Below, in pieces: positions 454 through 34,514 of a DNA stretch of 64,000 nucleotides (positions are counted from its first letter, which is position 1; each line of letters opens with the position of its first letter). The notes beneath the pieces were generated by a model. It was given only the letters and a program-made list of their open reading frames with translations, was not told where the DNA came from and made no database searches. Origin of the DNA: Eubacteriaceae bacterium. GTDB lineage: Bacteria > Bacillota > Clostridia > Lachnospirales > Lachnospiraceae. The translations under genes were made by a program, and so were the position numbers. Location: contig CAJTDQ010000003.1 of the NCBI GenBank assembly GCA_910574895.1, forward strand, positions 186,001 to 250,000, read 5' to 3'.

Positions 454-3400
454 ATGAAGAAATATTTTTATCAGAAAACAAAACAAATTTTTTCAGTATT
501 ATTAGCGCTGGCAATTATTGCCAGCAATTTTAATGTTCAAGTGAATGCAAGGCAGGAACAAACAAATGTAGAAACAAAAAACATAAATACTGATAATGAA
601 GGAAAAGCTGAACCAGTAGCAATTAAAGAATTGAAAAACGAACGGACAGTAGACAGCAATACATATTTGTTGAACAATGGAATGAAAAAGACTGTATATT
701 ATTCAGATAACATCCGTTATGAAGAAGATGGAAAAGTAAAAGCATATAATCCTGAACTTGTAAAAATGGATGAATCAGATAAAGAAGAAGCAGGAAAGTC
801 AAAAGTTATTTCAGACAGTAACACAGAAGCGTATAAGTATGTAAATGAAGCAGGAGATACAAAGCAGTATCTTCCAAAAACAATGAAAGAAGAAACCCCA
901 GTATTATTAACAAATAATAAATACAGGGTATCTTTTGCACCGGTATCAGACGAAAAGATTCAGAAAGATACTATGTTTGAAAATAAAACAAGAGCAGTAG
1001 AGATAGAAAATCAGGAAGTAACCAATATAGTTACGGAGAAAAAAGAAGAGAAAAAAGTAAAAGCGAATTATGAGTATGCAAATAAAGATGTCTCATTATC
1101 ATATCAGTCATTAGAGCATGGACTCAAAGAAGACATAATACTAGAGAGTGTGCCAGATACAAACACTTTTTCTTTTGTGATGTCTGTAGAAAATATGATG
1201 GCAAGACTGGATGATGTTGGTGGTGGAATTACATTTATTGATGAAGACAAAGACAATATTATCGGTGGAATACCGGCACCTGTAATGCATGATGCAGGTG
1301 ATAAGGGATATAGTGAGGATGCATACTATGAGTTGGAACAATTGGAAAGTAAAAAGAAAAATGTAAATAAATATATTTTAAAAATTGTAGTAGATGAAAA
1401 CTATCTTAGAAGTAGTGAAAGAGTATATCCGGTAACAATTGATCCTTCTGTCACATGGAATGGAACTGGTGATTTGCCGGATGTATATGTGTTAAAGTCA
1501 AGTGGTGGAACAAATTATTTTTCCAGTGGAGTAAAGACTTTCTCTGTAGGAAAAGGAAGTCAGGGGCTTTTTAGAAGTTATATCCGTGCAATGGAATTAA
1601 CGAATAGAGTAACCAATAAATATGTTGAGAGTGCAAAATTAACTATTTATGAAAATGGGGCAAATACAAAAGGTGCAAAGATACAGATCAGACCGGCATT
1701 GGCTGATTTTAAGTGTAAGACTGTAACATGGAATAACCAGCCGGGTGGAACGAGTGCTGTGCTTGCTTCCTTTACAGCCAGTGGAACATCCGGAGCAAAG
1801 AAAGTAATTGATTTAACATCATGGGCAAGAAACGTTGCTAAGGGTTCAGGCGATGGAAATAAAAATTATGGTCTGTTATTCCGGCTCGAAAATGAAAGTG
1901 CATCATCTTATGTCAAATTTTATGGAGCCAGAAGTACAGATACAGCCAAAGTTCCGAAATTGGCAGTGACTTATTATGATGGACCAACGACTGCTTCTTC
2001 TGTAAGCGGAGTCAGCAGTGCAGATGCGGGAAGGACATACCTTCGTGCAGGAGAAAGTCTGAAAGTAAACTGGGCAGGAATATCTTCACAGGCTTTAAGT
2101 TATGTGCAGTATCGAATTGAAAATGCATCAGGTACAGATGTTGTATATTATTCGGATAGTACAAAACTTGGTACAACAGCTTCAGGAACAAAGACAATAA
2201 GTGTCGCTTCTCTGGCTGAAGGACAATATAAGATTTATGTGCGAGGAGTGGATAAAGGTGGAATCAAAGGAACAGGAAAGGCTGCGACTTTTTATATTGA
2301 TAAGACTGCACCGGAGATAATGAGTCTGTCTTTAGACCCGGGATATGGAAACGGACAGTATAGTGAAATGGAACCGGAAATCACATGGAATGTTAAGGAG
2401 ACTTATCTGTCATGCGTTCAGGTTAGTATAAATAATGGAGCTTATAGAACTATTGGAACACAGAATAATGATTCTGGAGATATCACAGGACTTGAATCAG
2501 GGAAGGTGAACCTGATTCATGTAAGGGCTGTTGATAAGGCGGGAAATATCAGCTCTTATAGTGGATACCAGTATGCATATGACTGTGATGCACCGGTAAT
2601 TAAAATGTCAGTTAATCCTGATACAGATGAGAATAAGTATGATGGTTCTTCTGAAAAGCCTGTATTAAATTATGAAATCAGCGACAGTACCTTGAAAAGT
2701 TATAGTCTGTTTGTAAATGATGAAGAACAGAAACTTACTGAAAGTAAGGGCAGTGTGAAACTGGAAAGTGTAGAAGAGGGAGAGAACAGTATTGTAATTT
2801 CTGCTGTTGACAGGGCAGAAAATGAATCAGAAGAGGAGATTATATATTATAGGGATGTTACGAAGCCGGAGAGGGGAACTGTAAAAGTTACGCCGAAAAC
2901 GGGATTTTTGAATAGCAGTAATAAAATACCTACAATTAAGTGGAATGGAATAGATGATGATAATTTAGCAGAAGTGCAGGTTAAGATTGATGATGGAGAG
3001 TATAGAACTTTAGGATTAACAGCCGATGGAGAAGCTATGCTTCAGAGTGGTGATTTTACAAAAGAGGGTAAGTATAGAATTACTGTTAGAGGAGTTGATA
3101 AGGCAGGAAATACATCAGATGAAGTTACGTATAATTATTATTATGAAACAGTGGATTATGAACTTGACGATTATACTCCTGTTGATGTGTATGCTACAGA
3201 GCAGATTGGTGGAAACACTATTCTTAGATTTTCAACAAAAAATGGAAAGTTTAGAGATGATGTTAATTATCAGGTATATAGGTCAACTACACCAAATGTT
3301 GTTATAGGTGAAAAAACTTTTATAAAATCTTATGAATCAAAAGGTTCTATTAAAGTATCTGGAAATGAAGGGACGACATATTACTATAAACTTAGAACTG

Positions 3401-6400
3401 TGAAAAAAACAAATAATGGGGTACAGTATAGTGATTATTCAGAGGAAATTAGTTCAACAACAATGAAATCCGATATTGTTGAATATAGAACAGGGCAGAA
3501 TAGTATGTATCAGTATTCATCTGTAAAAACACCAAATGGAGTTGGAACTATAGAATTATCTAGAGGAAATTTTTCATATAGTCAGGGAGATATTTCTCTT
3601 CCGGCACCACAGCTTCCGGTAAATATTACTCGTGTTTATAATTCCAAAAATGAATGTAAATCATCTATGGGATATGGATGGAGACAATCTTATGATATGT
3701 ATGTATCTGAAAAAGATAATGTGGCGTATTTTATAGATGGAACAGAGGCTGTTTATACATTTACAAAGTCAGAGAATAAGTATACTTGTAATGAAACACC
3801 AGATATGTCATTAGAAATAGAAGATGATGTTTTAAATAGATCTATTACAAAAATAACAATAGACCAATCAGGAAAAGAGATTAAGAAATCAAAAGATTTA
3901 GAAATAGATACATATTATAAAGTGACTACAAAGAATGGCGAGACCTATAGATTTGATGAATGTGGACGGCTTTTGTTAATTGAAGATGCAAATGAAACTT
4001 TTGTATTTATATCATATAATACAAAAGATGGAAGCATTAAAACAGTAGAAACAAGTAAGGGACAGGAGGCTGAGTATTTATATAATGAGAAAGGTTTTAT
4101 TAGCAGAATAGTAGCTGCATCAGGGACTAAGTCAGAATATAGTTATAGTTATGAATATGAAAATGAATACTTGGTTAAAGCAATATTTAATGGTAAACAT
4201 GGTAAAAAAATAGAATATAAATATTCGTATAAAGATGGAAAACTTGATATCATTACTGATGCTGAAGGAAACCAATATAAAATAGAGTTTGAAGATTGTT
4301 CTATTAGTAGATTTGTATATCCAAACGGTGAGTTTGAGAAATATAGTTTTACGGAAAATCAAATTATCACAAGACCGAAAACAAAAGTTAATAAGTTCAA
4401 TAATAATGGCATTAAATTAAATGAAGAAGAATTTTATTTTACATTATCCGGACTACTCACTGAAAAAACAGATGCAGCTGGAAATAAATCATCATATTCA
4501 TATGACAAAAATAATAAAACGCTTCTTACGGATATGGTTGATAGTCAGACATATTATGCTTTAGAAGGAAATACTGTGGTACAAAAAGCAGTAACAACTA
4601 AGGAAAGTAACAAATATGATACTTATGGAAATGTAATACAAAGTACTGATGTAGATGGTTCTATTACAGAATATACATATGACTATAATAATAAAGTATC
4701 AGATGTGGTAAAAAATCAGCCAGTTACTATGAAGACAACAGATGCCAATGGTGTAGTGACAGCAAATGAAGCATATGAGTATGATAATTTTGGAAATGTT
4801 GTAAAGGAAATCGATTATATAACAAATGTAATAACTTTGTATTCTTATGGAGATGATGGAGAAGTAACAACTAGTCAGGAACTGTTAGGAAAAGATGTAA
4901 ACTCTCAGAATTTTGAAGAGACAGCATTAATGGTTTCTGATGAAAATACTACATATACATCTGATGGAGATGAATTGACAGAAGAGCTGGAAGAAGGAAC
5001 AGTAGAAGAAAACTCGGCCTATTTCTATGACGAAATAGGAAATGTAACACTAGAGGTTACAAGTTCGACAGATATCGGTGAAGAATTACTGCAAAAGCTT
5101 TCAAAAAAAGATATAAAAGTTGATGAAATCAAGGAACTCATAATAGGTACAGATATAGTGGTTATGTTGTATGAATATGATGATTTTCTCAGAATTGTTA
5201 AAACGATAGAAATATCAAAAAAAGGTATAACAGAAACAGAAAATAAATATAACAATAACGGAAGCATTTTAGAAGAAAAAGATGAAAAAGGCAGAGTTAC
5301 AAAGTATAATTATGATTCTATGAACCGTGCTGTAAAAACAGAACTCATTGTTGAAGGTGAGTCAAAAGTGTCAAATATCACGTATTCTTATGGCAGTTTA
5401 AGCAGAAACAATGGGCTGTCACTTGAAGTCATGAATAATGCTAGTATTGTGACAACCACAAACAAAAAAGGTGAAATAGTAGGAAAAACATATACTGATT
5501 CGTTGGGCAGGACAGTAAGAGAAATGAGTAATGGTCTATATACAGACTACACCTATGATAAAAGTGGAAAAGTTTATACAACTTATGCAGGTGGAACAGA
5601 TGAGTCAAATTCGGATTTAGCAGTAAAGGGTAAACTGTCTGTTTCGACATATGATGAGATGGGGAATTTAACAGCAACGATTGTAAATCCTGAGATTGAT
5701 GGTTCATCATTTAAGGTAGGGGATGATTCTATTGTTACAAAGAATGAATATGACAAATCAGGAAATCTGAAATCAACAACAGATGCAAATGGCAATATTA
5801 CATATTATGAGTATGATGAGCAGGGAAGGATTCTCAAAGTTACAACAGATGGAAGTGTAAAAGGTACTTATAGTTATGATAACCTTAAGAAAGATGCAGA
5901 TGGATCGTATGAGTCAGTTGTAGAAACTGTGACTTATGCAAATGGAGCTGTTGCAAAAACAACGACAAATGGTTCCGGTCAGACAATGTCTGTAAAAGAT
6001 GAAACGAATGATGGAAGTATTGAAACCACATATGAGTATGATAAAAGCGGTCAGCTTACATGTGAAACTTATTCGGATGGTTCTTGTGTAAGGTATGAAT
6101 ATGATATAGATGGAAACCAGATTAAGAAATCGATGTATAATTCATTAAACAACAAAAATGTTAATAGTCAAACAGATTATACTTATGATTCGGAGGGAAA
6201 TATACTAAAATCTATTGACTCAAAATCAGGAACTCCATATAGATACACTTACTATGAGTATGATTCATATGGAAGAAACATATCTATAGCAGAGGTAAAC
6301 GCAAGCAGCGAACCTGATGTAAATACAATCAATGCTTCAAAACTAAAATATGTATATAATGTGGATGATAATATTGAAAAAATATACTATCCAAACAATA

Positions 6401-8337
6401 AGTCAGATAAACTTAAAGGCATTCAGTTTGTCTACAATAAAGATAAATGGATAACAGAGATTGACGGACTCTTTTCAAATGATGAAACAACCGTAATCCG
6501 CCAGTACGTTTATCATAATGACGGTAAGATAAAGACAATTAAAGATTATGAGAATTTCTTAAATAAGGGTTCAGACTATATTGAGAGAGATTATACTTAT
6601 GATGTGTTTGACAGAGTAACAACGATGAAGTATTGTAATAGTACGGATGTCAATACCATTCTTGAGCAGTATGATTATCAGTATGATAAAAATTCAAATA
6701 TTACATATGAGCATGAAGTATTTAATTATGCAAATAATGTAAAAGATGAAGAGATTCGTTATACATATAACAGTCTTAATCAGCTTACAAAGTCTGAAAA
6801 AACAGACAATCTTACATATAAAACAACGACATCATCTTACAAGTATGACAGTGTAGGGAATAGAACCTATGAAGGTGTTTCAGAGTTTTATACAGTGGAT
6901 CAGACAAAATCAGAGGTAACCGGTAATTACACATACAGCAGTTATAATTCACTTAATCAATTGAAATCTGCGACAAGAATCGAATCAGAAGATGGGAAAA
7001 ATGCAAAAACATACAGTTATTCCTATCGATATGATAAAAAGGGAAATCAAGTAGAGGCAATTGATGGTAAGGCGGGAACTACAACATCTTATGAATATGA
7101 TGTTGAGAATCAATTAATCCACGTGAGAATTGATAAAAATGGCACAAAAGTATCAGAAGAGTATAATGAATATAATGGTGCAGGTCAGCGTATCAAGAAG
7201 AATGATATTATAGTAACTGACAGTGGAAAAGAAGAAACGGAGACAATCTGTTATTATTATGAAGGTAGTTTACTTCTTTATACAACAGATGAAAATGGTG
7301 TTAAGACAAGTCAGAACATTATTGGAAATCAGAATAATGCATTTGCAACGATTCGATATGATGGTAATAAGCAGAGGGAACATTTCTATTCCAAGGATGT
7401 ACAGGGGAGTGTTACAAATCTGGTAGATAACACAGGAATTTGTTCAAAATCATATAACTATACAGATTTTGGTGAGACAGAAGAGAGAGTTGCATCTGAG
7501 GTTGATAATGAAATTTGCTATACAGGTGGAGTGTATAATGAGTTAACAGGACTGTATTATTTAAATGCCAGGTATTATGACTCAGGTAATGGAAATTTCT
7601 TAAGTCAGGATACGTATAGAGGTACAGAAGGTAATGTAGATAGTTGGAATCTGTATGCTTATTGTGCAGGGAATCCAGTGAACTATGTAGATCCGAGTGG
7701 ACATGCCTCTAGCCCTATAAACAGTGGACAGTATTATCCAGCCCAGGCATGGGATACATTACGACAATTTGAAACATATAAAATCAAACCAAGTCAGTTG
7801 AAAAAGTTGGGGTGGGCAAAATCTGCTAGAAAAGTTTTAGTAGTTAAGAAATTAAATAAATCATTAAAAAAGTATAACATGAACTATAGATTAATAATTT
7901 GTCATTTTATTAGTCAGTGTATGCAAGAATCGCAGAAGGGAAAATATCCATCAGAGGCAGGATGGACACCAAAAAGTTATCAAAAGAAATATTGTTCGAA
8001 GTATGATTATAGGAATGATTTGGGAAATCATAGGAAAGGAGATGGATATAAGTATAGAGGGGTAGGATATATCCAGGTTACAGGTAAATATAATCAAAGC
8101 AAATTTGCTGATTCAGTGAAGGATCAAAAGATAAAAACAAAAGGAGCTTCATATATATTAAAGAAAAAAGAATATTTGTGGAGTATATCTACTTATTGGT
8201 GGGATATGAAGCGGATGAATGAAAAAATAAATAGTTCTACTAGTGTAGAAGACGTAACATATCTTGTAAATGGAGGGCAATATGGATTGGATAATAGGAA
8301 GAAATACTTTAAAAAGTGTCAAAAGGTTTTTAAGTAA
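454..8337 (+). CDS. Secreted RHS/YD-repeat polymorphic toxin with GH19-like C-terminal domain
   Basis: 2627 residues. Residues 1-33 are a Sec signal peptide ending VNA. Residues 40-330 form a leader region also present in the genes at 29291 and 56386, ending in the motif YPVTIDPSVTW. Residues about 335-510 are a DNRLRE-type (CBM96-like) domain with the motif VTWNNQPGG. Residues 510-1000 contain Ig/fibronectin-like modules. About 1035-1120 is a DUF6531-like entry (SYSQGDISLPAPQLPVNITR), then YD/RHS repeats to about 2340, then an RHS core (LTGLYYLNARYYDSGNGNFL ... NPVNYVDPSGH). After DPSGH the variable C-terminus (about 2430-2627) resembles GH19 chitinase/endolysin: QES with E2492 aligns with the usual HES catalytic Glu, GDGYKYRGVGYIQVTGKYN starts at 2529, and YLVNGGQYGLDNRKKYF starts at 2603. 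Architecture is like Bacillus WapA. Inferred role: contact-dependent delivery of a peptidoglycan- or chitin-cleaving domain. RBS GAGGAG lies upstream of the ATG. Confidence 0.88.
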   Translation: MKKYFYQKTKQIFSVLLALAIIASNFNVQVNARQEQTNVETKNINTDNEGKAEPVAIKELKNERTVDSNTYLLNNGMKKTVYYSDNIRYEEDGKVKAYNPELVKMDESDKEEAGKSKVISDSNTEAYKYVNEAGDTKQYLPKTMKEETPVLLTNNKYRVSFAPVSDEKIQKDTMFENKTRAVEIENQEVTNIVTEKKEEKKVKANYEYANKDVSLSYQSLEHGLKEDIILESVPDTNTFSFVMSVENMMARLDDVGGGITFIDEDKDNIIGGIPAPVMHDAGDKGYSEDAYYELEQLESKKKNVNKYILKIVVDENYLRSSERVYPVTIDPSVTWNGTGDLPDVYVLKSSGGTNYFSSGVKTFSVGKGSQGLFRSYIRAMELTNRVTNKYVESAKLTIYENGANTKGAKIQIRPALADFKCKTVTWNNQPGGTSAVLASFTASGTSGAKKVIDLTSWARNVAKGSGDGNKNYGLLFRLENESASSYVKFYGARSTDTAKVPKLAVTYYDGPTTASSVSGVSSADAGRTYLRAGESLKVNWAGISSQALSYVQYRIENASGTDVVYYSDSTKLGTTASGTKTISVASLAEGQYKIYVRGVDKGGIKGTGKAATFYIDKTAPEIMSLSLDPGYGNGQYSEMEPEITWNVKETYLSCVQVSINNGAYRTIGTQNNDSGDITGLESGKVNLIHVRAVDKAGNISSYSGYQYAYDCDAPVIKMSVNPDTDENKYDGSSEKPVLNYEISDSTLKSYSLFVNDEEQKLTESKGSVKLESVEEGENSIVISAVDRAENESEEEIIYYRDVTKPERGTVKVTPKTGFLNSSNKIPTIKWNGIDDDNLAEVQVKIDDGEYRTLGLTADGEAMLQSGDFTKEGKYRITVRGVDKAGNTSDEVTYNYYYETVDYELDDYTPVDVYATEQIGGNTILRFSTKNGKFRDDVNYQVYRSTTPNVVIGEKTFIKSYESKGSIKVSGNEGTTYYYKLRTVKKTNNGVQYSDYSEEISSTTMKSDIVEYRTGQNSMYQYSSVKTPNGVGTIELSRGNFSYSQGDISLPAPQLPVNITRVYNSKNECKSSMGYGWRQSYDMYVSEKDNVAYFIDGTEAVYTFTKSENKYTCNETPDMSLEIEDDVLNRSITKITIDQSGKEIKKSKDLEIDTYYKVTTKNGETYRFDECGRLLLIEDANETFVFISYNTKDGSIKTVETSKGQEAEYLYNEKGFISRIVAASGTKSEYSYSYEYENEYLVKAIFNGKHGKKIEYKYSYKDGKLDIITDAEGNQYKIEFEDCSISRFVYPNGEFEKYSFTENQIITRPKTKVNKFNNNGIKLNEEEFYFTLSGLLTEKTDAAGNKSSYSYDKNNKTLLTDMVDSQTYYALEGNTVVQKAVTTKESNKYDTYGNVIQSTDVDGSITEYTYDYNNKVSDVVKNQPVTMKTTDANGVVTANEAYEYDNFGNVVKEIDYITNVITLYSYGDDGEVTTSQELLGKDVNSQNFEETALMVSDENTTYTSDGDELTEELEEGTVEENSAYFYDEIGNVTLEVTSSTDIGEELLQKLSKKDIKVDEIKELIIGTDIVVMLYEYDDFLRIVKTIEISKKGITETENKYNNNGSILEEKDEKGRVTKYNYDSMNRAVKTELIVEGESKVSNITYSYGSLSRNNGLSLEVMNNASIVTTTNKKGEIVGKTYTDSLGRTVREMSNGLYTDYTYDKSGKVYTTYAGGTDESNSDLAVKGKLSVSTYDEMGNLTATIVNPEIDGSSFKVGDDSIVTKNEYDKSGNLKSTTDANGNITYYEYDEQGRILKVTTDGSVKGTYSYDNLKKDADGSYESVVETVTYANGAVAKTTTNGSGQTMSVKDETNDGSIETTYEYDKSGQLTCETYSDGSCVRYEYDIDGNQIKKSMYNSLNNKNVNSQTDYTYDSEGNILKSIDSKSGTPYRYTYYEYDSYGRNISIAEVNASSEPDVNTINASKLKYVYNVDDNIEKIYYPNNKSDKLKGIQFVYNKDKWITEIDGLFSNDETTVIRQYVYHNDGKIKTIKDYENFLNKGSDYIERDYTYDVFDRVTTMKYCNSTDVNTILEQYDYQYDKNSNITYEHEVFNYANNVKDEEIRYTYNSLNQLTKSEKTDNLTYKTTTSSYKYDSVGNRTYEGVSEFYTVDQTKSEVTGNYTYSSYNSLNQLKSATRIESEDGKNAKTYSYSYRYDKKGNQVEAIDGKAGTTTSYEYDVENQLIHVRIDKNGTKVSEEYNEYNGAGQRIKKNDIIVTDSGKEETETICYYYEGSLLLYTTDENGVKTSQNIIGNQNNAFATIRYDGNKQREHFYSKDVQGSVTNLVDNTGICSKSYNYTDFGETEERVASEVDNEICYTGGVYNELTGLYYLNARYYDSGNGNFLSQDTYRGTEGNVDSWNLYAYCAGNPVNYVDPSGHASSPINSGQYYPAQAWDTLRQFETYKIKPSQLKKLGWAKSARKVLVVKKLNKSLKKYNMNYRLIICHFISQCMQESQKGKYPSEAGWTPKSYQKKYCSKYDYRNDLGNHRKGDGYKYRGVGYIQVTGKYNQSKFADSVKDQKIKTKGASYILKKKEYLWSISTYWWDMKRMNEKINSSTSVEDVTYLVNGGQYGLDNRKKYFKKCQKVFK

Positions 8338-8386
8338 TTTTAATATGAGTTTGTGTGTTATCTAAAAAATAAAGAAAGGTGTATTT

Positions 8387-9043
8387 ATGAAAAAGAAAAA
8401 ATATATTATATTAATCTTAATTGTATTAATTATTTGTATAAGTGTGGAAATAGTTCATCTGAGTATCAATGGAGAAAGTAGTTTGGAAGTTGAAGATAAT
8501 AACTATCTTGTAGAAAAAGAAACTGTCATGATTGACAAATTTTCTTTGGAAATGCCCCAAATTGTTTACTCAAAGAACAAGAATAAACAGCAAAAGCTTA
8601 ATGGAATATTGGTTAATGCTGTCAAAGGACAATTAGATAGATTATCATCCGGTGGTAAATTTCATACATTTGAGTACTCCATTGAAACGAAAACGGATAC
8701 AAAGTTTAGCATTTTGTTTACATATGACTACTATAATGGAGAAGCAGCACACCCATGTATATCGGCATTTGCAGTAAATCTAGATTTGGAAGCGGAGAAA
8801 ATAATAAGTTTAGATGCGTACAAAGAAAGAATAAAATTGTTTGAACAGAAGGCTTTTTCACATGTCACAAAAAGAAAAACATCTTTAAAAAATGATGGTG
8901 GTGTATTAGAAAATAAGAGTATTGATGAATTATTAGATGATATGGATAATAGTAGTTTTTATTTTATAGGCAATAAAATAGGTATAATTTTTGAGGTTCC
9001 ATATGCATGTGGTGGTTATAGTATCTATGAGGAAAAAGAGTAG
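8387..9043 (+). CDS. Membrane-anchored PdaC/RsiV-like (DUF4163/DUF3298) protein, candidate immunity protein
   Basis: 218 residues. Residues 5-25 are a single hydrophobic anchor after a Lys-rich start, so the rest should face outwards. The ectodomain follows the DUF4163/DUF3298 pattern: a paired-strand start (KFSLEMPQIVY), TYDYYNGEAAHP (compare the usual YxYxGGAHG), AVNLDLEAEKIISLDAY, and GIIFEVPYACGGYSIYE near the end. Proteins of this type include PdaC and RsiV; RsiV of Bacillus subtilis is known to bind lysozyme. The gene lies 49 nt after a toxin whose C-terminus looks like a muramidase fold, behind its own RBS (AAAGAAAGG). I infer that it protects the producer by binding the GH19-like domain. 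It could instead be a house-keeping envelope protein. Confidence 0.65.
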   Translation: MKKKKYIILILIVLIICISVEIVHLSINGESSLEVEDNNYLVEKETVMIDKFSLEMPQIVYSKNKNKQQKLNGILVNAVKGQLDRLSSGGKFHTFEYSIETKTDTKFSILFTYDYYNGEAAHPCISAFAVNLDLEAEKIISLDAYKERIKLFEQKAFSHVTKRKTSLKNDGGVLENKSIDELLDDMDNSSFYFIGNKIGIIFEVPYACGGYSIYEEKE

Positions 9044-9169
9044 ATGGTAAGAAATATTTACAAGAACTCAGCGAAAGAGAAATGAATTTTATGGATATAC
9101 TCACCTTTTTATATAAAATGGATATTATTGGATTTATGAAGGTGATAGTTTTTTTGGGGGAGTAATTTT

Positions 9170-9319
9170 ATGTCTCTTTGCCATAAAGATTTCAAAAAAA
9201 TATTATCTTTCATAATTTGTACATATACTGCAATAATTTTTGGGAGCATAATCAAGTTTATACAAATGAATGGAAAAAGAGGAAAAAATGAAGAAGAAAA
9301 AAATTCTTATATTAATTGA
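9170..9319 (+). CDS. Possible small membrane protein (49 aa)
   Basis: ATG at 9170 is preceded by a strong GGGGGAG ribosome binding site with a 7-nt spacer. The 49-residue product has one hydrophobic span (ILSFIICTYTAIIFGSI) and a charged tail (NGKRGKNEEEKN). Its 3' end overlaps the next gene by 32 nt in another frame. No family is recognised. It may be a genuine small membrane peptide or a remnant of a decayed immunity gene; the RBS is the main support. Confidence 0.35.
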   Translation: MSLCHKDFKKILSFIICTYTAIIFGSIIKFIQMNGKRGKNEEEKNSYIN

Positions 9320-9779
9320 CATAATTTTATATATTATTTTTTCAATATTATATTCATCAAAAGGGTTTGCATTAATGCTTGCGGAAAAAACGGCAAGAGC
9401 ACATGTGGTGTATAATAAATATGGGAAAAGTTATAGTTATTTAAATTTTAAACCGATTAGTATAATTCTATATAGAGTTGGTGCATTAGGATTAATTTTA
9501 ACAGGCATAATCTTTATTGTATTGGTAACTCGTATTACATATGCAGAAATAAAAAAACTAAAAACTGACAGTAATAATGATATATGTAAACATGAATCTA
9601 AAAAAGGTGTTAATGCCATTAGCAAAATTGTGTTTAAAACTAATATAATTAAAAAATATGGAATGATAATATTAATAGCTATAATATATGCATTCATTCT
9701 TTATTCCGTTCCTTTAATTATAGAAGATAGTCTTTTTACAGAAGTTGGAACAGAAGGCGTGAGTTTTGAATTGTTTTAG
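9288..9779 (+). CDS. Hypothetical membrane protein
   Basis: 163 residues from ATG 9288, chosen over ATG 9270 because AGAGG sits just upstream of 9288 with a 5-nt spacer. Predicted membrane spans lie at about residues 5-22, 60-80 and 130-150, with a charged cytoplasmic-type loop between the second and third. No domain is recognised. It closes the cassette that follows the first RHS gene and ends before the valS promoter. Position suggests an accessory or additional immunity gene, but nothing in the sequence proves this. Confidence 0.6.
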   Translation: MKKKKILILIDIILYIIFSILYSSKGFALMLAEKTARAHVVYNKYGKSYSYLNFKPISIILYRVGALGLILTGIIFIVLVTRITYAEIKKLKTDSNNDICKHESKKGVNAISKIVFKTNIIKKYGMIILIAIIYAFILYSVPLIIEDSLFTEVGTEGVSFELF

Positions 9780-9835
9780 TCTAATATTTTTGAAGGCGGT
9801 ATTTAGTCTGACATATGCAAGAATATAATCCACGG

Positions 9836-9871: not shown

Positions 9872-10135
9872 TATGCAAAATGCCGTGAAGAAAAGGAGTA
9901 ATAAATAACCTTCTATAGAGAGAAAGGGATGGTGGAAGCCTTTCGGAGAAGTGTTTATGAAGGTAGTTTCTGAGCAGTTATGGTGAGAAAGAACAGTGAT
10001 GTTCATTAGCTATGACCGGTTCGTCCCCGTTAAAAGATATGATGAGAGATAAACAAAGGTGGTACCGCGATGATTCGCCCTTTGATGTGCTACCAATACA
10101 TAAGAAAAGAGCAGCACAGCTGCTCTTTTTCTTAC
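9872..10135 (+). promoter_or_regulatory. T-box leader (tRNA-Val sensing) of valS
   Basis: The leader has an AGAGAG / GGTGGAA-type Stem I region at about 9915-9940. The near-canonical T-box AAAGGTGGTACCGCG is at 10055-10069, and a strong intrinsic terminator follows. TGGT in the T-box would pair with an ACCA tRNA end. A GTA triplet at 9963-9965 in the 3' side of Stem I is a plausible valine specifier, assigned by eye. Uncharged tRNA-Val is expected to stabilise the antiterminator and allow valS transcription. Confidence 0.92.
10105..10132 (+). terminator. T-box-controlled terminator
   Basis: AAAAGAGCAGC, loop ACA, GCTGCTCTTTTTC: an 11-bp stem with a U-run, placed 35 nt after the T-box sequence and before valS. 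Confidence 0.9.
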
Positions 10136-10201: not shown

Positions 10202-12844
10202 ATGAAAGAATTTGAGAAGAATTATAATCCGGCAGAGATTGAAGACAGATTGTATGAAAAATGGCAGGAGAAGAAATACTTCCACGCAGAAGTAGACAGA
10301 AGCAAGAAACCATTTACGATTGTGATGCCGCCACCAAACATTACAGGACAGCTTCACATGGGACATGCATTAGATAATACAATGCAGGATATTTTAATCA
10401 GATTTAAAAGAATGCAGGGATATAATGCATTATGGCAGCCGGGTACAGACCATGCATCGATTGCTACAGAGGTAAAGATTATTGATTCCTTAAAAGAGCA
10501 GGGAATTAACAAGGAAGATCTTGGACGTGAAGGATTTTTAGAGAAAGCATGGGATTGGAAAGCAGAGTACGGCGGACGTATCATTAACCAGTTGAAACGC
10601 CTTGGTTCATCAGCAGACTGGGACAGAGAGCGTTTTACGATGGATGACGGATGTTCAGATGCGGTACAGGATGTATTTGTAAAGTTATTTAATAAAAAAT
10701 TAATTTATAAAGGTTCCAGACTTATTAACTGGTGTCCGGTATGTCAGACATCTATCAGTGATGCAGAAGTAGAGCACGTAGATATGGCAGGTCATTTTTG
10801 GCATATTAATTATCCGGTAGTTGGGGAAGAAGGTCGTTTCCTTGAGATTGCAACAACCCGACCGGAGACAATGCTTGGCGATAGTGCTGTAGCAGTAAAC
10901 GCAGAAGACGACAGATATAAAGACCTGATTGGAAAGATGGTGGAATTACCACTGACTGGTCGTCAAATTCCTGTTATTGCGGATGAACATGCAGATATGG
11001 AAAAGGGAACTGGTGTTGTTAAGATTACACCTGCACATGACCCGAACGATTATGAAGTTGGAAAACGCCATAATCTGCCGGAAATCAATATGTTAAATGA
11101 TGATGGAACAATCAATGAAATCGGTGGAAAATACGCAGGTATGGACCGTTTTGATGCCAGAAAGGCTATTTTGAAAGATTTAGACGAACTGGGTCTGTTA
11201 GTAGAGACAGAAGATTTAGTTCACAGTGTAGGAACACATGACCGTTGTAAATCAACAGTAGAACCGATGATTAAACCACAGTGGTTTGTGGCAATGGAAG
11301 AGTTGGCAAAGCCGGCAATGGAAGCTGTAAAAAATGGCGATTTAAAATTAATTCCGGAGCGTATGAACAAGACATACTTTAACTGGCTGGAGAATATCCG
11401 TGACTGGTGTATTTCACGTCAGTTATGGTGGGGACATAGAATTCCGGCATATTATTGTCAGGATTGTGGAGAAGTTGTTGTTTCAAAAGAAGCACCAACA
11501 GTTTGTCCAAAGTGTGGAAAGAATCACTTTAAGCAGGACGAAGATACATTAGATACATGGTTCTCATCAGCGCTATGGCCATTCAGTACACTTGGCTGGC
11601 CGGAGAATACAGAAGATTATGATTATTTCTATCCGACAGATGTTTTGGTAACAGGATATGATATTATCTTCTTCTGGGTTATCAGAATGGTATTTTCAGG
11701 ATTGGAGCATACAGACAAGCTTCCATTCCATACAGTAGTGTTCCATGGACTTGTTCGTGATGATCAGGGACGTAAGATGTCCAAGTCATTAGGAAACGGT
11801 ATTGATCCATTGGAAGTAATTGATAAATATGGTGCAGATGCTCTTCGATTTACATTGATTACAGGAAATGCACCGGGTAATGATATGAGATTCTACTGGG
11901 AGAGAGTCGAGGCATCACGTAATTTTGCAAATAAGGTTTGGAATGCTTCCAGATTTATTCAGATGAATCTTCCAGAAGAAAATATTAACTTAAATAATAA
12001 GCCGGAAAACTTAACAGATGCAGATAAATGGATTTTGTCAAAATCTAACACATTAGCAAAAGATGTGACAGAAAATCTTGATAAATACGAATTAGGTATT
12101 GCAGCCGACAAAATTTATAACTTTATTTGGGAAGAATTTTGTGATTGGTATATTGAAATGGTTAAGCCAAGATTGTACAATGATAGTGATGACACAAAAG
12201 GGGCAGCACTTTGGACGTTGAAGAAAGTATTAATTGATTCATTAAAACTTCTTCATCCATATATGCCATTTGTCACAGAAGAAATTTTCTGTACATTACA
12301 GGAAGAGGAAGAGTCTATCATGATTTCTAACTGGCCTGAATATACAGAAGAATACAATTTTGCAAAAGAAGAGGCAGCAGTAGAGACAATTAAAGAGGCA
12401 GTCCGTTCTATCAGAAATATCCGTTCAGAGATGAATGTAGCACCGAGCAAGAAAGCAAAGGTCTTTGTTGTATCAGAGGATGCAGATATCCGTGATATAT
12501 TTGAAAACGGAAGAGTATTCTTTGCAACACTTGGTTATGCCAGTGAGGTTGTTATTCAGTCAGATAAGTCAGATATCGAAGACGATGCAGTATCAGTAGT
12601 GATTCCAAAGGCTACCATCTATATGCCTTTTGCTGAGCTTGTAGATATTGCAAAAGAGAAGGAACGTCTGGAAAAAGAAGTACAGAAGTTAGAAAAAGAA
12701 CTTGCCCGTGTAAACGGTATGCTTTCTAATCAGAACTTTGTAAGTAAAGCTCCGGAGAAGAAAATTAATGAGGAGAAAGAGAAGAAAGCGAAGTATGAGC
12801 AGATGATGGAACAGGTAAAAGAGCAGCTGGCAAGATTGAAATAG
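10202..12844 (+). CDS. valS: Valyl-tRNA synthetase
   Basis: 880 residues, a full-length class I valyl-tRNA synthetase that attaches valine to tRNA-Val in the cytoplasm. The HIGH-type motif is HMGH in [14 protein letters not shown] near residue 42, and KMSKS is in [14 protein letters not shown]. The CP1 editing domain carries [16 protein letters not shown] Cys-rich knuckle (CQDCGEVV...CPKCGKNH) precedes [10 protein letters not shown]. The C-terminal 65 residues form the usual Lys/Glu coiled-coil tRNA-binding arm. ATG 10202 follows AGGAGCGAGAG. Transcription is under the upstream T-box. Confidence 0.98.
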
Positions 12845-29250: not shown

Positions 29251-29290
29251 ATAGAACGAAAATAAATAATGAAATGGGAGGAGAAGGTCT

Positions 29291-32200
29291 ATGAAACACA
29301 AAGTAAACAAAAAAGTATTAAGAAGAATATTGTCATTAATTCTTGTGATGACAATGTTGGTAACAGGACTTGGTTTGGATATGATGGAAGAGTTTGTTTT
29401 TGCAACACAGAAAGCAAAAAAAGTAGAAGACAACCAAAGAGATGAAGTTAAAGTCGTAAAGGAATTGGTTAATGAGCGAACAGAAAGCTCTAATACCTAT
29501 TTAATGAGTGATGGCTCAAAGAAATTGGAAATACTAGGGGAAAACATAAGATATGAAGAAAACGGAAAATTAAAGGATTATGATACAAGTTTATCAAAGA
29601 TAAGCAAAGAAGATAAAAATGAGTTGGAAAATACGGTGGCTGAAAATAATTTGGATGAATTCGATTATGTAAATGAAAGTGGAGATGCAAAGCAGTATTT
29701 TCCTGCTGAATATAAAGATGGAAGTGAAATTGTAATGAGTAAAGATAAATATTCATTATCGTTTTCACTATGTACAGATAACGAAGATATTTTCAAAGCA
29801 AAATTAAATAATGATGAGATAAGGTATGCAGCAACAGATGAAAATGTGGAGTACCAGTATATTTCATTGAGGAATGGTGTAAAGGAAAATATTGTCTTAA
29901 GTAACAGACCAGAAACAAATGTATTTAAATATTTACTTAAAGGAAAAAATATAGACTATAAATTACTTCGAAGCGGAGAAATAAGCATTCAGGATAAAAA
30001 AACAAAAATTCAGATAGGAAGAATTGAACCTCCTAATATTATAGATGGCGAGGGAAATGTTGATTATACAAAAGTTAAATATGAGTTTCATAATAATGGA
30101 GAGAATACATTTCTTAAGATAGTAGTGGATAATGAATATTTGGATGATGAGAATACAAAATATCCGATAACCGTTGACCCTACGGCAGTATGGTTTAATA
30201 CAAAACTTCCGACGACAATTGTAAACAGCGTAACGGGAAGAAGTGACGATGTTGTTCTGGCAAATACTCTGCTTGTGGAAAATAATTATGTATATAACGA
30301 AAAACAGGATACAAGAAGTAGTCGCGTGTATATAGATACGTCAAACTTAATAGGTGGAACAGACTGGCTAGTGGGAACTCCTGAAATCAGTGGAAAATAT
30401 ATTGAAAATTCATATCTGTATCTGGGTGAAAAAGTAGCAAGTAAAGAAAATGTGCAGGTAGATGTAAAAAGTGTAGAGAGTGCATGGGATGTTAATACAA
30501 TCACATGGAATACTCAGCCAGAAATAAGTAACAAAATAATTGCAACGACATGGAATAAAGGAGTAGATGGAAGAAACCACGGCGTAAACATCACAAAGTG
30601 GGTTCAGGCAATTGCTGATGGAAAAAAAGAAAATTATGGACTAGTACTGGAAGCAGCAGAAGAAGGCACGCAGTGTTCTTATTATGGTACGATTCAGCCG
30701 GGAAGCAACTTTATGTGTATTGATGTTATTTACAGGGATTTTGAGAAGTATGATGCATCAATAGAGGTGACAATAGAGTATGATAGTGAGATTGGGAAAT
30801 TTCAAGCATCCATTGAAGATACAAATGCACTGGATGAGGGAGTAACAGTAAAAGGATATAAAGTTTTTGCAAGAAAGAATGATGGAAATAAATTTGTAAG
30901 TGTATATCAGGGAACGGATATTACAGAAGATGCAGAAATAGGCATTGAGTCCGACTGTAGTAAAATCGATTACAGAGTATGCATATTGTATTCGGATGGA
31001 ACAGTAAAACCGTCAAACATAGTATCATTTAAACAAAATACTGATATAACACAGGATGAGGTGGGAAATGATATTACAACGGTATTATATGAGCAGACAA
31101 CGTTTGATACTGACGGAGATGGTCTTGAAGATGGATATGAAATTTGGGATTTCAAAACCTTATGGAATACAGAGACGTCAGAGAGTACAGAAGAAAACCC
31201 TGTATACAATTTAGATACAGATAAGGATGGTTTTCCAGATTCTTATGAAGTGTTTACCCTTGGGACAGACCCAGCGGTGGCAAACGAAACAGGAACTGAT
31301 AGTGATGGAGATGGTTGGACAGATTTAAAAGAATATCAGGAAGGAACAGACCCATGGCTTAAAGATTCTGATTTTGACGGGATAAATGACAGAGGGGATG
31401 CTATTCCAAGAAAAACAAATGATTATACGAGGCAGACGAGAGCAGCAGAAGCAATGGTTCATAAAGGGCTTTATGATAAACAGTTTTCTGAAACAATTGA
31501 AGAAGTTATAAATATCTATATTATTAATATATATCGGGGAGATATTAAACAGATAACAGCAAATTATGGTGATTCCAGTTTAAACAAGACGTTAAAATAC
31601 TTCTATGATGAAAAAGGAAATAATACAGCAATCATTGAGGTATATGATGAGAATTATGATCCAAATCACACGCAGACAATCTGCATTACTTACACATATG
31701 ATGAGAATGATAAGGTTACTTTTATTTGTGACCAAAGAACCAAATATACAATGGGTTATACTTCAAACGGTGATATAGCAAACCTTAAAGTCGGAAATCA
31801 AACTTTAATTGATTATGATGATACAAAGATTGTTAATAATTCAGGAGAAGACGGAAGTATAGAGAATATATCTGTAGGTGAAATTATTACTCAAAATGAA
31901 CATACAGATACGTATGGAAATAATCAAGTTGTAAGAACAGTTACAACAAATTATAAGGTTGCAGAAAATGATACTACGTCAAAGGCAACTAAAATCGAAG
32001 TATTTTATAATACAAATCAGATAGCAACATATGTGACAGAATTGAATTCTGAAGGAAATATTTTGAAATTGGAAGATTATAGCGCTAAAGAAGATGTCCC
32101 AGTCGTATGGAACTATTCTTATACAGATAGAGGTCAGACATTTACCAGGAGTGACAATTTCATAAAAGCAATACAAACTTCTGAAAATGAACAGGGTGTT

Positions 32201-34072
32201 AACACGAAACAAACTTCATTTGGATTTAAAGATATAAAAAATCAAAATAAAACTTATACAGATATTGTCAGTACATTGACAGAAACGGAAATTACTGAAG
32301 ATGGTAGTGAATATGAGAGAAATATTCGAACCAAAATATTGCATAATGCTGATGTATCAAGCATTACAAATTTAGATGAACAGACCGAAGAGAAAATTCG
32401 CTCTAATAAATATAACGCAGATGTAGTAAAGAGTACACTGAATGAAGTAAGTAATACAAATACAACATTTGATGTTAATGTATATGGGACTGTAGCAGAC
32501 AAAAATTTTAATTATATTTATGATTTAGCTGGAAATATTACTGAGATAAAAGATGGTAATGATATTAAATACCAATATTCATATGATGCACATGGAAGGC
32601 TTACAGATGAAAAAGACTATATAACATTAAAAGAAGTGGCTTATGATTATAATACTGATGGGAATATTTATGGTAAAACTGTATATTCGATAAATAGTAG
32701 TGGAAACAGAACGGATAATAATGGGAGTACGATTCATTATAATTACAATAATAGTAATTGGTCAGATCAGCTTACTTCTTATAATGGTTATGCAATTACA
32801 TATGATAATGTTGGCAATCCACTAACATATATAGGAGGATTAAGTTTTGCTTGGTCTAGGGGACGTCAACTCTCTGAAGTGACATTAACAAACAATAGTA
32901 CTGCTAGTTATGAATATAATCAATATGGACTTCGTACAAAGAAAGTAACTAAAGAGGCAACAACTAAATATGAATGGGATAAAGATAAGCTCTTAAGAGA
33001 GACAATTACTTATAATCAGACAAATGGCATAGTAGATATATGGTATTTGTACAATGTGGATGAAAAGATAATTGGTTTTGAATATAGTTATCTTAATCTT
33101 ACAAATGATATTGTAAAGGCAAGGGTTTACTATGAAAAAAATCTACAAGGTGATGTAATAGGCTTGCTTGATGCAAGAGGAGCAGAGATAGCAAGTTATA
33201 CTTATGATGCATGGGGAAATATAACAAGTCATACATATGTAGAAGGAAATGAAATACCTTATAATTTAAATCATATTTTATATCGTGGATATTACAGAGA
33301 TGAAGAAACAGGATTCTATTATTTACAGAGTAGGTATTATGATGCTGAAATAGGTCGATTTATTAATGCAGATGGTGCAATGATGATAGGAACAGAGGGA
33401 AATGATATATATAAAGATAATTTATATATTTATTGTAATAGCAATCCAATTAATCGTGTAGATTACACAGGGGAAAAGTCGAATAGGAAGAAAATAAAAT
33501 TTAAATATAACCGTAGTGATGCTCGTAAATATATGGAGAGGTATTGGAAAGTTAAAGCGAAGGAAAATGGATGGTGGATTTTTTCATCAACTAGTTATTC
33601 AGGGTACAATAAAAGGTTCCCTTATTTAGAAAGAGGTGACTGCACTAATTTTGCATCTCAATGTTTATGGCAAGGCGGAATCCCAATGACTTGGTGCTGG
33701 TATTGTTATAATACTGAATGGGGATATGAATTTACACATTCCTGGAGTGTAGTTTTGGAACAACGAGACTATATAAAAAAGACAATTGTAGCGAAAACAA
33801 CGAGAATAAATTGTAATGTATCAGTCGAGTCTATTAAAAAATATATTAAAAACAATAAACCTCAAGTAGGCGATATAATATATTTTCATGCGAAAGGGAA
33901 AAAAAAGTTTACACATACAGCAATAATAAGTAAAGTAAAAAGTAATAAGATTGAATATGCAGCACATAGTGATAGTCATATAAAAAAATCCATCAGAACC
34001 CCATTGAATGGAGGATATTATGATTATGTAGAAATTTGTCACATTAAAGGGGAGGGAAAATTTTATGTCTAG
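29291..34072 (+). CDS. Secreted RHS-repeat polymorphic toxin with amidase-like C-terminal domain
   Basis: 1593 residues. Signal peptide 1-38, ending VFA. The leader region to about 300 resembles that of the first RHS protein (KELVNERT..SNTYLM..GSKK; IRYEENGK; KYPITVDPTAVW). A DNRLRE-type domain spans about 301-485 (ITWNTQPE). A fibronectin-like stretch and thrombospondin type-3-like calcium repeats from 605 (DTDGDGLEDGYEIW; DTDKDGFPDSYEV; DSDGDGWTDLKEY; DSDFDGINDRGD) follow. RHS/YD repeats run from about 775, and the core is ETGFYYLQSRYYDAEIGRF ... NPINRVDYTGE. The C-terminus (about 1400-1593) resembles Amidase_6: YNRSDARKYMERYW, GDCTNFASQCLWQGG with Cys1451, VGDIIYFHA, and THTAII with His1542. 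Inferred to cut peptidoglycan peptides in target cells. RBS GGGAGGAGAAGG. Confidence 0.88.
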   Translation: MKHKVNKKVLRRILSLILVMTMLVTGLGLDMMEEFVFATQKAKKVEDNQRDEVKVVKELVNERTESSNTYLMSDGSKKLEILGENIRYEENGKLKDYDTSLSKISKEDKNELENTVAENNLDEFDYVNESGDAKQYFPAEYKDGSEIVMSKDKYSLSFSLCTDNEDIFKAKLNNDEIRYAATDENVEYQYISLRNGVKENIVLSNRPETNVFKYLLKGKNIDYKLLRSGEISIQDKKTKIQIGRIEPPNIIDGEGNVDYTKVKYEFHNNGENTFLKIVVDNEYLDDENTKYPITVDPTAVWFNTKLPTTIVNSVTGRSDDVVLANTLLVENNYVYNEKQDTRSSRVYIDTSNLIGGTDWLVGTPEISGKYIENSYLYLGEKVASKENVQVDVKSVESAWDVNTITWNTQPEISNKIIATTWNKGVDGRNHGVNITKWVQAIADGKKENYGLVLEAAEEGTQCSYYGTIQPGSNFMCIDVIYRDFEKYDASIEVTIEYDSEIGKFQASIEDTNALDEGVTVKGYKVFARKNDGNKFVSVYQGTDITEDAEIGIESDCSKIDYRVCILYSDGTVKPSNIVSFKQNTDITQDEVGNDITTVLYEQTTFDTDGDGLEDGYEIWDFKTLWNTETSESTEENPVYNLDTDKDGFPDSYEVFTLGTDPAVANETGTDSDGDGWTDLKEYQEGTDPWLKDSDFDGINDRGDAIPRKTNDYTRQTRAAEAMVHKGLYDKQFSETIEEVINIYIINIYRGDIKQITANYGDSSLNKTLKYFYDEKGNNTAIIEVYDENYDPNHTQTICITYTYDENDKVTFICDQRTKYTMGYTSNGDIANLKVGNQTLIDYDDTKIVNNSGEDGSIENISVGEIITQNEHTDTYGNNQVVRTVTTNYKVAENDTTSKATKIEVFYNTNQIATYVTELNSEGNILKLEDYSAKEDVPVVWNYSYTDRGQTFTRSDNFIKAIQTSENEQGVNTKQTSFGFKDIKNQNKTYTDIVSTLTETEITEDGSEYERNIRTKILHNADVSSITNLDEQTEEKIRSNKYNADVVKSTLNEVSNTNTTFDVNVYGTVADKNFNYIYDLAGNITEIKDGNDIKYQYSYDAHGRLTDEKDYITLKEVAYDYNTDGNIYGKTVYSINSSGNRTDNNGSTIHYNYNNSNWSDQLTSYNGYAITYDNVGNPLTYIGGLSFAWSRGRQLSEVTLTNNSTASYEYNQYGLRTKKVTKEATTKYEWDKDKLLRETITYNQTNGIVDIWYLYNVDEKIIGFEYSYLNLTNDIVKARVYYEKNLQGDVIGLLDARGAEIASYTYDAWGNITSHTYVEGNEIPYNLNHILYRGYYRDEETGFYYLQSRYYDAEIGRFINADGAMMIGTEGNDIYKDNLYIYCNSNPINRVDYTGEKSNRKKIKFKYNRSDARKYMERYWKVKAKENGWWIFSSTSYSGYNKRFPYLERGDCTNFASQCLWQGGIPMTWCWYCYNTEWGYEFTHSWSVVLEQRDYIKKTIVAKTTRINCNVSVESIKKYIKNNKPQVGDIIYFHAKGKKKFTHTAIISKVKSNKIEYAAHSDSHIKKSIRTPLNGGYYDYVEICHIKGEGKFYV

Positions 34073-34514
34073 AAAAAAAGTCTGGATAATTATTTTAATA
34101 GTTATATTTTTAATTATATTAATATGCATATCATTAAATATAAAAAACTATAATTCTCGAACAAGAGATGTAATACAAATTGAAAATATAGTCAAAAGTT
34201 GTGTGATTGGAGATATTAAAAAATCAAATATCGATGAAAAATATGGAAAGAAAGTTTATGATTGTATTCATGCTAATTGGATGGAAGAGGGAGGAATAAA
34301 AATAACACAAATAGAATGTAATACATATGAAGAAAACTGGGAAAAAAATTATATTTGGATGGATGTTAGTTATAAAGGAAAATTGGAAAATGGCAAGAGA
34401 GTTTCTGAATGTGAATATTTTAAAATATTTTTTGAAAAGAATGGGGACGAGGTCTATGTAACAAAGATAGGTGTTTCAGTTGGAGAAGATGGAATATCGG
34501 ATTTGGATGTATAG
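34065..34514 (+). CDS. Membrane-anchored candidate immunity protein for the amidase-type RHS toxin
   Basis: 149 residues. A membrane anchor at about 6-27 (VWIIILIVIFLIILICISL) leaves an ectodomain of about 120 residues with four cysteines. The fold is not recognised; the strand pattern YIWMDVSYKGKL ... FKIFFEKNGDEVYVTKIGVS could be a cystatin/NTF2-like sheet, but this is only an impression. The ATG lies 8 nt inside the toxin gene, and its RBS (GGGGAGGG) is inside the toxin coding sequence, so toxin and partner would be made together. Position, size and membrane topology fit immunity against an extracytoplasmic toxin. Confidence 0.65.
   Translation: MSRKKVWIIILIVIFLIILICISLNIKNYNSRTRDVIQIENIVKSCVIGDIKKSNIDEKYGKKVYDCIHANWMEEGGIKITQIECNTYEENWEKNYIWMDVSYKGKLENGKRVSECEYFKIFFEKNGDEVYVTKIGVSVGEDGISDLDV

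Follow-up and report, generated by a model that had tools for sequence, protein, structure and literature searches.

If the product of an RHS polymorphic-toxin gene ends in a domain that would cut cell walls, what protects the cell that makes it? The question is raised by two adjacent genes near the start of a stretch of 64,000 nucleotides (hereafter the window: positions 186,001 to 250,000 of contig CAJTDQ010000003.1, from a Eubacteriaceae bacterium of the Lachnospiraceae). The first encodes an RHS protein with a GH19 glycan-hydrolase tip, and the second a protein with a predicted membrane anchor and a DUF4163/DUF3298 domain, called the partner below. We consider it probable that the two form a toxin-immunity pair, in which the partner most likely plugs the active-site cleft of the tip. 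This reading is based on folds and a glutamate pair obtained by prediction and comparison, and on adjacency of the two genes in several toxin architectures; export, toxicity, binding, the binding face and inhibition are what we infer from them. The features concerned are the following.

454..8337, plus strand: RHS polymorphic-toxin gene, 2627 amino acids, with Pfam and TIGRFAM matches.
7690..8337, plus strand: C-terminal GH19 glycan-hydrolase (endolysin-type) tip, the last ~210 residues, by sequence, profile and predicted-fold matches.
7927-7929, plus strand: putative catalytic glutamate E2492, residue 50 of the tip stretch that starts at window position 7780.
7954-7956, plus strand: putative catalytic glutamate E2501, residue 59 of the same stretch.
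8387..9043, plus strand: candidate immunity gene, 218 amino acids, with a membrane helix at residues 2-25 and a DUF4163/DUF3298 (RsiV-like) domain at about residues 37-218.

The RHS protein consists, in this order, of an N-terminal signal-like segment (read by eye), Ig-like domains, RHS/YD repeats, an RHS core and the GH19 tip. Pfam matches include RHS_repeat (E 1.9e-34), DUF6531 (E 5e-13) and Big_13, and the core is TIGR03696 Rhs_assc_core (residues 2336-2417, E 2.2e-19), after which the variable C-terminal tip begins. A preliminary description of this DNA had read GH19 motifs into the C-terminus behind the core, and the reading frame 454-8337 does end in them: in a phmmer search of the PDB the tip matched the endolysins of PWe2 (9ms7, E 9.2e-17) and SPN1S (4ok7, E 3e-9), and it matched the PHROG_181 endolysin family with E 2.5e-29. 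The structure prediction that it had proposed likewise returned a GH19 fold. The AlphaFold model, built from 18 aligned tips, has a predicted local distance difference test score (pLDDT) of 93.2 and a predicted template modelling score (pTM) of 0.89. Its Foldseek matches comprise 9ms7 (E 1.5e-8, query TM-score (TMq) 0.83), the GH19 endolysin 9eoi (E 2.3e-6), many GH19 chitinases and, in third rank, TseP (8xcl); the best 50 of 60 chains (E up to 10) are GH19-type endolysins or chitinases, apart from TseP, which is a type VI effector, and one phage protein. By this model, the C-terminus of the RHS protein is a GH19 catalytic-domain fold. The equivalents of E2492 and E2501 are invariant in 18/18 aligned tips, the window's included, and we take the two residues to correspond to the catalytic pair E49/E58 of the SPN1S endolysin, with a spacing of nine in both. 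The tip is a putative glycan hydrolase to which no bond specificity, such as muramidase-like, is assigned. The Pfam GH19 model PF00182, which is named for class I chitinases and serves detection without defining the family, gave no match to it at E up to 1, and related tips at the loci L121, L108 and L109 (see below) scored 22.6, 15.3 and 13.6 bits, against a cut-off of 25.5.

The partner gene starts 49 bases after the toxin gene, with a ribosome-binding-like AGAAAGGTG 5' of its ATG (by eye). Between 7600 and 9400 of the window no terminator-like site was found, and promoter-like sites were at about chance level (16 versus 11.1 expected, standard deviation 3.6). The predicted helix at residues 2-25 is taken as a membrane anchor; almost nothing lies N-terminal to it, and the remaining domain would be extracytoplasmic. 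This helix, a held-out profile and the predicted structure all agree with the earlier reading of the gene as encoding a membrane-anchored protein of the DUF4163/DUF3298 pattern. The Pfam model PF13739 (PdaC/DUF4163) stays below its cut-off (E 0.056, 15.0 versus 29.1 bits), while a profile made from partners at other loci, with the window's own held out, finds 8387-9043 at 57.1 bits (E 9.7e-16) and no other open reading frame of the window. Held-out profiles of this kind recovered 11/11 family sequences in 7 groups, at 32-228 bits. The profile of the 11-member partner set matches 3cyg (E 3.6e-9); the window's partner alone matched no PDB chain by sequence and nothing in plasmids. Its predicted model (pLDDT 75.9, pTM 0.69) gave Foldseek matches below E 0.001 to chains of 3cyg and 5jen alone. 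VIA-align ranked 3cyg (Z 10.5), 4e72 (9.6), RsiV bound to lysozyme (5jen, 9.5) and 3s5t (9.3) highest, with root-mean-square deviations of 4.0-4.6 over 160-166 residues, followed by 2hhi (6.4) and then by values of 5.1 and lower. In PMC5014341, 3cyg, 3s5t, 4e72 and 2hhi are named as structural relatives of RsiV, and RsiV itself is described with the DUF4163/DUF3298 fold and as binding lysozyme, just as the preliminary description had stated. By homology to the held-out profile and by the two-domain fold of the model, the partner is a member of the DUF4163/DUF3298 superfamily, its DUF3298 half being supported by structure and not by a Pfam match. Of the two proteins to which it had been likened, the model resembles RsiV (Z 9.5); it is not PdaC, because a polysaccharide deacetylase catalytic domain is absent from the Pfam matches of the 218-residue protein. 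A beta-propeller-like fold of the XAC2610/PliI/Tsi1 type is not among the structure matches listed for the model, which excludes nothing.

Does the pair recur elsewhere? An alignment of three tips served for a pattern-based scan of 84,980 genomes, which is a sample and not exhaustive; it gave 292 stretches matching a pattern and 22 loci. A DUF4163-family gene lies directly downstream of 8/8 toxin-type GH19 tips among them and of 0/13 assessable other GH19 loci (Fisher p 4.9e-6). At the 14 loci of this other class the GH19 domain is accompanied by segments that look by eye like LysM, wall-binding or comparable ones, and L113 was left out of the count because its contig ends 255 bases past the tip. 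With a stricter toxin class, defined by an RHS core or WXG100 neighbours, the counts are 3/3 versus 0/13 (p 0.0018). The toxin-type loci, with the DUF4163 gene directly downstream in every case but the last, where it is just downstream, are listed here.

L117, Thermincola: RHS protein.
L121 (= L009), Lachnoclostridium sp. UBA5725: RHS protein.
L109, Cohnella: tip gene beside WXG100 genes.
L108, metagenome-assembled genome (MAG) of Clostridia: N-terminus matching no family above cut-off.
L114, L116 and L118, one in each of three Paenibacillus species: tips sharing 99% identity, N-termini assigned to no family.
L122, Clostridium: orphan tip, broken, within an array that holds further tips and partners.
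L157, Paenibacillaceae, from a family search: tip closely preceded, in a different frame, by an RHS core (by eye).

The neighbourhood survey that had been suggested thus found toxin-type GH19 tips repeatedly followed by DUF4163-family genes. In the family group of Paenibacillus, the tip profile matched 9 places in 7/104 genomes; three are the loci L114, L116 and L118, and L157 is a new pair. The endolysin-like genes L155, L156 and L159, and L158 and L160, which are pieces of one broken gene, have no DUF4163 gene. In the window's own family, matches to the tip occur in 3/299 genomes, namely its own genome, L009/L121 and one spurious case (G087/L010, E 1.2e-4), which has eight stops inside the match. 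Lipobox-like leaders were recognised by eye in the partners at L117, L108, L114, L116, L118 and L157. Across seven pairs, identities between tips are correlated with those between partners (Mantel r 0.70, p 0.017).

Several points weigh against a toxin-immunity pair. The sorting into toxin-type and other loci was done by the analyst, partly after the neighbours had been seen. The eight loci are not all independent, the three of Paenibacillus being one case, and these three proteins and that of L108 have no recognised delivery domain, while L122 is a broken orphan tip. Tips of L108 and L109 are 79% identical and their partners 37%. At L112 (= L132 1354-3038, a Peptococcaceae MAG), a DUF4163-like gene lies directly upstream of a GH19 protein; that protein has a peptidoglycan-binding-like tail by eye and looks like a wall hydrolase, and the gene order can evidently be reversed. 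P. tyrfis has a close relative (L137, 250 bits) around which the 1.5 kb inspected contain no GH19 tip. Within the genus, 23 genomes were searched for the tip and the source genome was the sole match, the other 22 giving none. A class-wide search with a two-row profile matched 2/391 genomes, the source genome and one with a weak match that has five stops, and with an 18-row profile the source genome was the sole match in 391. Finally, the window's partner is divergent, with 17-25% identity to the other six, and is one of the two most divergent in the set. Its C-terminus falls short of that of most relatives by about 20 residues (15 to 33 when aligned), and since the profile match runs on past its stop to window position 9088, with two stops inside, the C-terminal end may be eroded. 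It is the better-preserved pairs, L117, L108, L109, L114 and L157, that carry the argument.

Could the partner protect the cell in another way? It might shield the wall by binding peptidoglycan, or some other part of the tip, without filling the active site. Wall deacetylases of the PdaC/PgdA type contain the partner's fold as well, and SpPgdA (2c1i) aligns with the partner at Z 5.1, so that a wall-binding role is conceivable. Against this, RsiV, the relative whose function has been studied (Z 9.5), acts directly on the enzyme, which it binds and inhibits (PMC5014341), and a wall-binding helper might be expected at other-class GH19 proteins as well, of which 13/13 assessable ones have no downstream partner, L112 having its gene upstream. 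We regard shielding as improbable, with a small share of the credence left to it.

An ordinary stand-alone gene for a DUF4163 envelope lipoprotein might also have come to lie behind the tip by accident. Genes of this family are common, with 67 places in 59/299 genomes of the window's family at E 1e-10, two of which, the window's and that of G164, are known to lie beside a GH19 tip. With the window's partner as query, 6/299 of these genomes gave matches, and L003-L006 among them adjoin unrelated genes. The DUF4163 family is therefore wider than immunity, and most of its members do something else or stand alone. In 9/28 loci viewed (L200-L227), a stand-alone DUF4163 lipoprotein gene has a uracil phosphoribosyltransferase-like neighbour (by eye), conserved and with no toxin. 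Besides a C-terminus that does not fold like GH19, the preliminary description had named one combination that would refute its proposal, tips standing before unrelated genes together with the family gene occurring alone; the latter part was seen, and the former was not seen at any of the eight toxin-type tips. A density of about 0.2 genes per genome makes repeated chance adjacency to one kind of tip unlikely, and the gene lies downstream of all eight of these tips and of 0/27 assessable RHS controls. This control set holds 30 loci, the best one per genome from 30 of 38 matching genomes (120 searched), with no GH19 and no DUF4163 match in any of the 30; 27 reach 250 bases or more beyond the end of the core's reading frame, and L163, L176 and L179 are shorter. 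In the source genome, which has 10 core matches, a DUF4163 neighbour was found at 0/9 other RHS cores, one of which is also among the 30 controls, and the other tips include Amidase_6, Zn_dep_PLPC (zinc phospholipase) and DUF4329. GH19 loci on viral contigs have a DUF4163 gene in 0/85 cases, some contigs being counted twice; a single-sequence scan of viral_contigs with the tip gave 3 candidate stretches, none of them a relative. The tip matches 72 plasmid records, all below 60% identity, and the best of these (a Staphylococcus region of LysM, GH19-like and M23 character) has no DUF4163 match. An accidental neighbour is on these grounds very unlikely.

That the partner is an RsiV-type sensor reporting the toxin or host lysozyme to an extracytoplasmic function (ECF) sigma factor, as the fold and single membrane pass common to both proteins (PMC5014341) might suggest, is hard to credit at all, since its predicted helix starts at residue 2 and leaves no room for a cytoplasmic sigma-binding domain, the genes downstream encode a small membrane protein and then a valine-tRNA synthetase-like protein (by eye) and no sigma factor, and several relatives look like lipoproteins by eye; lacking both the sigma-binding part and a sigma gene downstream, the partner is not RsiV itself.

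How, then, would a toxin-immunity pair work? The producer would export the RHS protein across its own membrane, with the GH19 domain as an exchangeable tip that cuts glycan strands in the peptidoglycan of competitors. As the tip would act outside the cytoplasm, the producer would keep a membrane-anchored protein on its outer face. GH19 enzymes and lysozyme have a common structural core. By analogy with RsiV on lysozyme, the partner would bind the tip and its loops would plug the active-site cleft, the toxin blocked being the producer's own or that of a sister cell. RsiV binds lysozyme with an affinity of about 70 nM; two of its loops enter the active site, and at a 1:1 ratio inhibition is nearly complete (PMC5014341). 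The earlier proposal that a lysozyme-sensor fold has been reused as an immunity protein is supported by the GH19 fold of the tip, the adjacency in the scan and the further pair L157; immunity and binding are the parts that we infer. A further and less likely reading is that Gram-positive bacteria use the DUF4163/DUF3298 fold generally as a scaffold for inhibitors of lysozyme-like enzymes. The antidotes and RsiV would then be branches of one family, and either the sensor would descend from an antidote against bacterial wall-cutting toxins or the antidotes from the sensor. Were this true, many of the DUF4163 lipoproteins that stand alone would act as orphan antidotes or protect against endolysins of phages or competitors.

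Other arrangements of wall hydrolases and small proteins were seen in passing. At L122 (1940-10285, Clostridium sp. HBUAS56010), an array of broken GH19 and GH24-like tips holds four DUF4163 genes or fragments. Its GH24-like (phage-lysozyme-like) pieces, 3845-4207 and 7270-7962, match PF00959 below cut-off (E 7e-4 and 1e-3). A link of DUF4163 to GH24 tips, suggested by the gene 3011-3841 just before one such piece, was set aside because both pieces precede another kind of gene (4207-4842 and 8000-8659, with a copy at 9298-9813; likeness by eye), whose small product may be their antidote. A Turicibacter MAG (L135 763-2325) has a gene for a GH25 lysozyme (E 7e-38) and one for a DUF4163-like lipoprotein (held-out profile, E 3e-6) in convergent orientation, which may form a further enzyme-inhibitor pair. 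Six Bacilli (L101-L106) have, near their LysM-GH19 proteins, a different conserved lipoprotein whose motif resembles LGPNQEIDELNVRHI (by eye) and which may be a partner of some other type. The window itself has a second RHS gene in the region of about 29280-34514, with its core at 33203-33472, the end of its frame at 34072 and an Amidase_6 tip (E 2.2e-21). The 149-residue protein encoded after this tip at 34065-34514, which matches no Pfam family and seems by eye to begin with a membrane segment, is a candidate antidote to another wall-directed tip. Downstream of the partner, two features complete the surroundings.

9270..9779, plus strand: small membrane protein, encoded once in the genome and weakly similar to Arv1 (E 0.012, below cut-off).
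9876-10085: T-box leader (Rfam RF00230, 115 bits), just 5' of the valine-tRNA synthetase-like gene (by eye) at 10202.

The small membrane protein is not counted as part of the pair, and PADLOC assigned no family to the three proteins.

If the toxin-immunity reading is true, a part of a large lipoprotein family of unknown role acquires a testable function, lysozyme sensing by RsiV becomes linked with interbacterial warfare, and annotators could predict immunity genes for GH19 toxins in Bacillota. To the XAC2610/PliI/Tsi1 and LprI types it would also add another fold among the inhibitors that protect bacteria from GH19 or lysozyme-like toxins of their own. In line with the preliminary description, no paper listed in searches of an open-access library describes, in its title or at the start of its abstract, a GH19 tip paired with a DUF4163/DUF3298 protein.

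Of known systems, the closest on the side of the partner is RsiV, the Bacillus subtilis anti-sigma factor and lysozyme receptor and inhibitor (5JEN; PMC5014341). Both have the DUF4163 and DUF3298 fold and a membrane-held extracytoplasmic domain, and the proposed target of the partner is a lysozyme-like glycan hydrolase. In contrast to the partner, which adjoins a GH19 tip, RsiV has a cytoplasmic part that binds sigma-V, is encoded in a sigV-rsiV-oatA operon and senses C-type lysozyme (PMC5014341). On the side of the tip, the Xanthomonas citri effector XAC2609 (X-Tfe) is likewise a GH19 peptidoglycan hydrolase used against bacteria, secreted by a type IV system; its antidote XAC2610 (X-Tfi) is, like the partner, an envelope immunity protein, with a loop predicted in the active site of the effector, but it has a beta-propeller topology, as in PliI-Ah and Tsi1, and belongs to Gram-negative type IV delivery (PMC10933484). 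A lysozyme-inhibitor family has also been proposed to provide immunity proteins in the case of LprI/DUF1311, found beside lysozyme-like effectors of type VI secretion systems (PMC12135965, PMC8867033); that family is a different one, and the systems are Gram-negative. TseP of Aeromonas dhakensis (8xcl) is comparable to the tip toxin as an effector with a lysozyme domain, which TsiP binds and inhibits (PMC11893102), and differs from it in being a dual amidase-lysozyme effector of a type VI system. The overall plan of the locus is that of RHS/YD-repeat polymorphic toxins, with a long repeat trunk, an RHS core, an exchangeable C-terminal tip and a small downstream gene. Within this plan the combination of tip and partner seems to be new, whereas GH19 effectors with other antidotes are already known and a lysozyme-inhibitor family has been proposed elsewhere to supply immunity proteins.

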